From positions 1-43,009 of the forward strand of contig CAPI01000090.1 of assembly GCA_000333815.1 (NCBI GenBank): a stretch of DNA of 43,009 nucleotides. The letters are read 5' to 3'. The position numbers and the translations under genes were made by a program. Under the pieces are notes generated by a model. It saw only the letters and a program-made list of their open reading frames with translations. It searched no databases and had not been told where the DNA came from. Below, piece by piece: positions 24,100 through 25,497 of this stretch. Position 1 is the stretch's first letter. Each line of letters starts with the position of its first letter. Source of the stretch: [Collinsella] massiliensis. GTDB lineage: Bacteria > Actinomycetota > Coriobacteriia > Coriobacteriales > Coriobacteriaceae.

Positions 24100-24182
24100 T
24101 TACGCCGCGGGTTTCGGCGACATGAGCAGGTTCTCCCGCTTCGAGAGCGTCACGGACTCGTCGCCCATGATGGTCTCCTTCT
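24100..24182 (-). pseudogene. Duplicated 3' end of ftsH
   Basis: The minus strand encodes a copy of the last ~27 residues of FtsH. KKETIMGDESVTLSKREN here corresponds to [18 protein letters not shown] in the real gene, and both end in a KPA-type tail and TAA. It follows the stop of the intact zinc-ribbon gene directly and precedes a diverged copy of the ftsH terminator element. It is a duplication scar, not a functional protease. By chance or otherwise, the copied AAGGAG now stands 6 nt before an ATG that opens a 22-codon frame (24100-24168). Confidence 0.85.
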
Positions 24183-24187
24183 TACTA

Positions 24188-25072
24188 TCAGTGACCCGTG
24201 CTCACAGATGCGTTCATAATCCACTCCCCATCCTCATCGCGAATCTCGTAGTCACCGGCGTTGCCTTCATCCCAGGTGCATGAGCCGTAGCCGCCGTTTC
24301 CGTAGCCGTCGTCCAACGTCGCCTGGACATCCATCGTGCGCATGATCTCGTCATAGTCCATGGCGTCATCTATCACGCCGGTACCCGTGCCGAGTACCCA
24401 ATGAACGGATCCGTCGGCGTCGAATTCGCGCAGGGCGAACACGGTTTCGCCATCCCGCTCTACCTCAACGTACCAACGTCCCTCGAGCTCTCCCGAAGAC
24501 GCTCCCTCCGGGAATTGCAGGCGGACGACGGTCGAATCCGGCTGCCCGTCCGCATCCACAAGGTTCGCGACCTTCCAGATTTTGCCGAGCTCGTTCGAGC
24601 CGTCCTCCTCAAGTGTTCCCGTGAACATCGTGGGATAGGAGCCTGAGGTCTCGTCATACGTGAGCAGCTCGATAACCTGGTCGCCGCCCTCTTGCTCGAT
24701 GCGGTAGTTGAAGCCGAACGCGTTATCTTGGAAGGTGAAGAAGCCGTTCGGGAGCCTCCCATCGCGGCCGAGCACGCCCGTCGCGAAGAGGACGGCCACC
24801 ACGATGGCAGCCACCGCCACCACGGCGATGCCGCCGATGATGAGCGGCTTGCGCGAGCGCTTCGGCGCGGGCTGCGCAGTCGCGGATGCCGGGTTGGGCG
24901 CGGCCCCGGTGCCAGCCAGTTCGGGCACCGGCCCCGCGCTTGGGGTGGACGCCGCCGCGACCGGCTCAGCTTCGGGCTGCTCAGGCTTCGGCGCGCCCGC
25001 CACCTCGGCGCCGCACCCCGGGCAGAACCTCGACCCTTCAGGTAGCTCCCTGCCGCACTTGGAACAGAACAT
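24188..25072 (-). CDS. Membrane zinc-ribbon protein (intact copy of a tandem family)
   Basis: A 294-residue protein. An N-terminal zinc ribbon (MFCSKCGRELPEGSRFCPGC) is followed by a Pro/Ala-rich linker and a single membrane helix (about residues 76-98, IIGGIAVVAVAAIVVAVLF). The remaining ~190 residues form a probably extracytoplasmic, beta-rich acidic domain with LPNGFFTFQDNAFGFNYRI, GKIWKVANLVDADG, SSGELEGRWYVEVE and DAMDYDEIMRTMDVQ. I do not recognise a characterised function. A cytoplasmic ribbon joined to an external domain suggests a sensor or assembly factor, by inference only. ATG 25072 is chosen for GGGAGG upstream. Two further copies lie downstream, one frameshifted and one truncated. 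Confidence 0.82.
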   Translation of the reverse strand: MFCSKCGRELPEGSRFCPGCGAEVAGAPKPEQPEAEPVAAASTPSAGPVPELAGTGAAPNPASATAQPAPKRSRKPLIIGGIAVVAVAAIVVAVLFATGVLGRDGRLPNGFFTFQDNAFGFNYRIEQEGGDQVIELLTYDETSGSYPTMFTGTLEEDGSNELGKIWKVANLVDADGQPDSTVVRLQFPEGASSGELEGRWYVEVERDGETVFALREFDADGSVHWVLGTGTGVIDDAMDYDEIMRTMDVQATLDDGYGNGGYGSCTWDEGNAGDYEIRDEDGEWIMNASVSTGH

Positions 25073-25377
25073 GGCGACCTCCCATCTCGAGCCTTCGCTC
25101 CCTCCATGATGGAAGCGCGCAGCGCCCATCGCAAGCGCACGCGACAGGAATTAACGAACGTCCCTCTCGTCGACGTCTACCCGGTCCGTGACGTGATCGT
25201 CTCGCTCGTCTCGGCGCTCCTCGACAGAATCGGGAACACCGTGATCGATACGACCACGGCCAAACGCAACAGCGACGACACGACCCCCAACAAGGACGCC
25301 TAACGCGCCCCTCAACCCCAATATATCCCGTCACCCCGCCTCTGCATGCCGCCAAAGCCGACGGGAGATAACGCTTT
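25073..25377 (-). other. Leader region of the intact zinc-ribbon gene
   Basis: About 300 bases between the ftsH element and the zinc-ribbon start. A TATATT at 25320-25325 (minus strand) could be a -10. A 38-codon frame from TTG 25293 to TAG 25177 encodes a hydrophobic stretch (LLRLAVVVSITVFPILSR), but it has only a distant GAGGGG and I do not call it a gene. Nothing else is apparent. Confidence 0.4.
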
Positions 25378-25485
25378 GCCCCGCCCCCAGGCATATCCGT
25401 CTGGCGCAGTTCCGCAGAAAAGCCCGCCAAAGGCGGGCTTTTCGAGGACTGTCTGAGCACAGACGGATATGCCTGGGGGCGGGGC
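25378..25485. repeat. 108-bp nested inverted-repeat element after ftsH
   Basis: Perfect 26-bp arms at 25378-25403 and 25460-25485 (left arm begins GCCCCGCCCCCAGGCATA) enclose an inner hairpin at 25418-25442. The whole could fold as one long stem in RNA or extrude as a cruciform. The arms are far longer than a terminator needs, so it may be a MITE- or REP-like element that now serves as the ftsH terminator. Confidence 0.85.
25418..25442. terminator. Intrinsic terminator inside the ftsH element
   Basis: AAAAGCCCGCC-aaa-GGCGGGCTTTT is a perfect 11-bp stem. The T-run closes the hairpin on either strand, so it can act bidirectionally. Confidence 0.85.
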
Positions 25486-25497
25486 GTATGCGCGCTC

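Follow-up and report, generated by a model that had tools for sequence, protein, structure and literature searches.

We examined the region behind ftsH in a Coriobacteriaceae draft genome (2.33 Mb in 135 contigs, labelled G000). The source is one 43-kb contig, and the whole stretch analyzed (43,009 nt) is referred to as the window. Read along the minus strand, the order is ftsH, element A, a 305-nt spacer, the zinc-ribbon gene ZR1, a second ftsH end (tail'), a second element (element'), a spacer of ~95 nt, ZR2, a ZR3 fragment and a NYN/LOTUS gene. The features are listed below.

25498-27468 (-): ftsH, intact open reading frame of 656 aa, C terminus of GQE type
25497-25582 (-): first copy of the direct repeat (final 27 codons of ftsH), compared with the ftsH of 66 genomes
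25378-25485 (-): element A, an inverted repeat with perfect 26-bp outer arms, a conserved core and an inner hairpin (fold -101.7 kcal/mol)
25345-25364 (+): partial copy of the final seven codons of ftsH, inverted and lying across element A from the gene (20 nt at 90%)
24188-25072 (-): ZR1, intact, 294 aa, with a zinc ribbon (Pfam Zn_Ribbon_1, 7e-9), a predicted helix and a beta-rich domain (predicted fold)
24099-24184 (-): tail', decayed ftsH 3' end of GDE type (84% DNA identity; site-by-site states)
about 23990-24090 (-): element', decayed second ftsH element, arms broken and core bases lost (fold -61 kcal/mol)
23002-23896 (-): ZR2, frameshifted zinc-ribbon paralogue (three-frame translation and alignment)
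22510-22965 (-): ZR3, paralogue fragment lacking the 5' half, immediately after ZR2 (alignment from ZR1 residue ~159)
21314-22369 (-): NYN/LOTUS gene, conserved far border of a variable slot (Pfam NYN, 6e-33; synteny in relatives)

The original prediction held that about 27 ftsH codons and the adjoining element recur in diverged form directly after the intact ZR1, and comparison of the region with itself recovered this repeat. The direct repeat (25497-25582 and 24099-24184, ~1,398 bp apart) covers 86 nt at 84% identity, and in a gapped comparison it runs on through the element for ~192 nt at 77% (E about 1e-34). The element part (25419-25470 and 24021-24072, 77% identical) is offset by 1,397-1,398 bp, equal to the offset of the tail. 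Tail' begins 3 nt past the ZR1 stop codon, and its translation is 73% identical to the FtsH C terminus across 26 residues. The present ftsH is intact, as had been proposed, and its product is 94% identical to the orthologue in G002. The predicted order of tail, element, ZR1, tail', element' and ZR2 holds as well, with the corrections that the second zinc-ribbon copy is frameshifted and the third lacks its 5' half. Since no tail copy lies between ZR2 and ZR3, the array contains two tails rather than three units. A whole-genome search with the repeat found two places, both in the window. Second decayed tails were sought in 81 ftsH loci (several per genome for some genomes) and were detected in the window (L033) only; G004 and the other relatives gave no trace of one. 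A match at L043 was rejected as a second tail, being 27 nt long and located inside ftsH on the opposite strand.

We agree with the original prediction that the order of the parts records the history of the array. The history it proposed was a single tandem duplication of a unit made of the ftsH tail, the element and a zinc-ribbon gene, copied from the ftsH of this genome and giving rise to both zinc-ribbon genes. The order of parts and the equal offset of tail and element are what such an event would leave. The ages of the parts speak against it: ZR1 and ZR2 differ at 145 of 198 synonymous sites (pS 0.73, i.e., saturation; dN 0.55), versus 14 of 85 sites (16%) for the two tails. Parts copied together would be of one age, but the genes are saturated while the tails, of which tail' is under no coding constraint, differ so little. 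The spacers between element and zinc-ribbon gene (305 vs. 95 nt) cannot be aligned with each other. ZR2 is also not the least diverged partner of ZR1; ZR1 is nearer to ZR3 by identity and DNA match (64% synonymous differences, dN 0.38). Together with the GDE-type codons of tail' described below, these results make a single duplication of the whole unit improbable. In the protein tree ZR1, ZR2 and ZR3 fall together (96/96), with the branching order among the three not settled. ZR2 shifts frame at a C6 tract (about 23291-23296), with the rest of its reading frame open as far as the natural end. The gene may be a pseudogene, or the shift may reflect a sequencing error or a phase-variable tract.

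Full-length zinc-ribbon genes were found in two of 67 family genomes, G000 and G004, in both cases at ftsH. In the comparison across relatives, G004, the sister of this genome by ftsH, has three full-length zinc-ribbon genes between the same borders and one ftsH tail, and the second tail is present in the window alone. The family can therefore expand without tail copies. The two inner genes of G004 (L063:6984-8100) have starts that are 91% identical and 3' flanks that are 84% identical; judged from the alignment, they may derive from a separate local duplication or conversion with no ftsH sequence involved. A ZR1 query against a contig collection of 85,000 species returned no relative, and a plasmid search with the region returned no match. 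A fold search with the ZR1 model (mean pLDDT 62) gave no significant PDB match, with weak hints of a beta-barrel (FABP/lipocalin-like) only.

Next, we asked whose ftsH end tail' is. We searched the 67 family genomes, one per species, with a pattern for the ftsH end and obtained a single match in each of 66. Among these 66, the codon CAG (GQE) occurs in G000 and G004 alone and all others have GAN. Tail' carries GGC GAC GAG (GDE type), codons that the present ftsH has lost. Of the 14 differences between tail and tail', six are absent from the ftsH of the 13 genomes compared and all six are transitions, which points to decay after tail' stopped coding. The other eight are states found in the ftsH of other species, including the two transversions of GAC, and ACC for ACG. 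By identity tail' is closer to the ftsH of G022 (87%) and G002 (85%) than to its own (83.5%), and of nine sites that distinguish G000 from G022, it sides with other species at six. Tail' resembles a remnant of another version of ftsH more than a recent copy of this genome's own.

Trees built from tail plus element, which rest on 85-190 informative bases, paired G000 with G004 (97/94) and placed the copy outside. Constraining G000 to group with the copy lowered the likelihood by 6.95 log units (AU p = 0.034). When only the tail was used, the constraint was not significantly worse (AU p = 0.145); the copy is a long branch. From the codon states and the tree, we assign tail' with moderate confidence to the 3' end of a GDE-type ftsH. 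It is very unlikely that the assembly is at fault here, or that sequences from two mixed strains were fused at the repeat. The assembly is a draft in 135 contigs and the join lies at the edge of the repeat, but the six private states are absent from every working ftsH examined and core bases are missing from element', so tail' is not the functional ftsH end of another strain.

An older tandem duplication has more in its favor. In this scheme the ftsH tail, the element and one or more zinc-ribbon genes were duplicated before G004 split off, when ftsH was still of GDE type. The copy would later have disappeared from G004, and the zinc-ribbon genes would have been reshuffled or replaced. The order of the parts fits, and so does the position of the copy just outside G000+G004. 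Element A and element' have 11 arm bases in common, and tail' shares with the present ftsH a CGG codon (AAG CGG GAG) that is absent in twelve relatives, which have AAG CGC GAG. To date the copy we used a neutral clock since the G000/G004 split, taken as half the dS of their common genes (dS 0.46 for ftsH, 0.56 for MATE, 0.77 for NYN and 0.96 for two further genes). If tail' had been stranded before the split, 20-41 changes would be expected in its 85 nt, but 10 were seen relative to the nearest ftsH. So few changes have P = 0.014 under the slowest clock and ~0.001 or below under the other clocks; the tail' branch in the tree (0.22 per site) is itself close to the slowest clock. The deficit argues with moderate force, though not conclusively, against a duplication before the split. 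The scheme also requires later replacement of at least one zinc-ribbon gene and spacer, and it is not helped by the missing second tail in G004 and the other relatives. We regard it as unlikely, while still the most serious competitor to the explanation given below.

Between ftsH and the NYN gene lies a slot for variable cargo. Its contents differ among relatives (genes named from our reading of their sequences, not from database matches): a sigma-factor-like gene in G002 and G005, a 1,678-aa protein and a further gene in G001, a membrane protein in G008, a LysR-like regulator in G014, and the element with no gene in G012 and G016. Both borders group G000 with G004 (ftsH body 100/100; NYN gene 97/95). 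Both borders follow the species relationship, and the slot interior departs from that history. A sliding identity plot along ftsH, searched for a mosaic break between G004-like and G002-like sequence, showed no clear break.

We consider it somewhat better than an even bet that two diverged ftsH-downstream alleles were joined in this slot by illegitimate recombination. One allele, ftsH-element-ZR1, would go with the present GQE-type ftsH; it is slightly favored as the resident allele because ftsH is concordant with the species history. The other, tail'-element'-ZR2 with the ZR3 fragment, would have brought along a GDE-type ftsH 3' end, derived either from a close relative or from an allele that existed earlier. 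The mechanism of joining that we infer is as follows. Recombination probably had homology on one side only, the ftsH or the NYN side, and the illegitimate join would have linked the sequence immediately after the ZR1 stop codon to a point 27 codons short of the end of the other ftsH. Tail' and element', once stranded, would then have decayed, to which the six changes seen in no ftsH compared bear witness. The abrupt passage from ZR2 into ZR3 suggests a second ragged join, and the process may have happened more than once. A separate arrangement of GDE-type ftsH with ZR2 was present in no strain compared, and no donor was found. If correct, the array is a readable fossil of content change in a variable slot behind a housekeeping gene, in which a stranded gene end preserves codons of an allele type gone from the present ftsH; tandem duplication would not be a necessary inference from a repeated gene end plus terminator.

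Similar displacement arrays have been described for T6SS immunity genes of V. cholerae, for which homology-facilitated illegitimate recombination was proposed; orphaned Rhs 3' regions are cited there as well (PMC5361080). In common with these, the ftsH locus has a conserved border gene followed by a stack of diverged genes, with the 3' end of the displaced gene stranded between them. The stranded end appears, with moderate confidence, to stem from a different allele of the border gene (GDE codons), and the flanks are vertical with a discordant interior. Unlike the V. cholerae arrays, the border gene is ftsH and not an effector, there is no effector-immunity pair, and a single end is stranded. 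Tandem duplication by unequal crossing-over is known to produce merodiploids (PMC3784515). The ftsH locus resembles that outcome in its directly repeated gene end and its retained intact gene. It differs in that its parts are not of one age, its two spacers are unrelated and, in the tail-plus-element tree, the copy does not pair with the present ftsH. Insertion with a long target duplication is known for restriction-modification genes. The likeness lies in a gene flanked by a ~100-bp repeat of the neighboring gene; there, however, the repeats are identical at insertion and derive from one target, and here they appear to represent different ftsH alleles.

The element behind ftsH had been called a terminator. 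A T-run does follow its inner stem, and the A-tract/T-tract inner stem is terminator-like, but a terminator scan did not report the ftsH copy, and a TTT closes the inner stem in only seven of 72 element copies. Using the family pattern CAGTCCTCG-N8..38-CTGCGRAAC, we found the element in 78 of 299 genomes of the order (a reversed control gave zero), with up to 41 copies per genome, the latter in a genome of another family. G000 has nine elements, two of them in the window (25378-25485, minus strand; 35432-35552, plus strand), and further loci include L156, L157, L164 and L243-L250, among others. In a phylum-wide sample of 296 genomes, 17 contained the pattern, and many of these are the same Coriobacteriales; three of the loci outside the class (L252-L254) have no arms and are probably due to chance.

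The outer arms, mostly 15-37 bp, vary in sequence between copies and pair within each. The median arm score was 20, compared with 6 when arms were swapped between copies, and at 15 of 19 consensus pairs both sides have changed with pairing kept. Elements lie mostly behind genes (14 co-directional, nine convergent, eight opposite and two divergent by crude gene calls, with 11 of 44 unassigned) and sometimes form inverted pairs about 100-140 bp apart. In some cases the arms run into the stop-codon region of the neighboring gene (25345-25364 on the plus strand, L157, L244, L245, L250 and L261). The far side of the element is then an inverted copy of the gene end; at ftsH it copies the last codons in a 63-column inverted alignment. 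A first test for arms extending into gene ends showed no excess because near-identical loci inflated the control. In an exploratory measurement of the 60 nt past each arm, 13 of 72 copies (18%, compared with 1.2% for swaps) had inverted similarity running on past the arm at a score >= 22; several of the 13 are near-identical loci of related species, so the independent cases are fewer.

Rfam searches of the window copies found no family at E<=1, Collinsella-1 (RF01700) included, and searches of six loci with other copies gave three sub-threshold matches, to unrelated families only. We found no description of the element in a literature search whose scope excluded the supplementary tables of large surveys (PMC8040213). 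Like intrinsic terminators, REP-like palindromes and the Collinsella-1 RNA, the element is palindromic and located mostly between genes, behind gene ends. It differs from all three in its conserved 18-base core and its freely varying, covarying outer arms. We put it at about an even chance that the ftsH element belongs to an undescribed, Coriobacteriales-wide hairpin family. The family may represent a new structured RNA, or a mobile palindrome by which gene ends are copied in inverted form, and it could take part in the turnover of gene-end slots. If it is a true structured RNA or mobile palindrome, it would add a new feature, present throughout the genome, to what is known of gut Coriobacteriia.

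Two further observations were made at the ftsH loci of relatives. G022, which belongs to another genus, and G002 have near-identical sequence behind ftsH (L067 and L064) with ftsH bodies that do not group; on this comparison, a recent exchange at the locus is possible. In the ftsH of G004 (L063:10700-10830), 26 nt are missing ~50 codons from the end and the reading frame is shifted as a result; this loss is either a real mutation or an assembly error.
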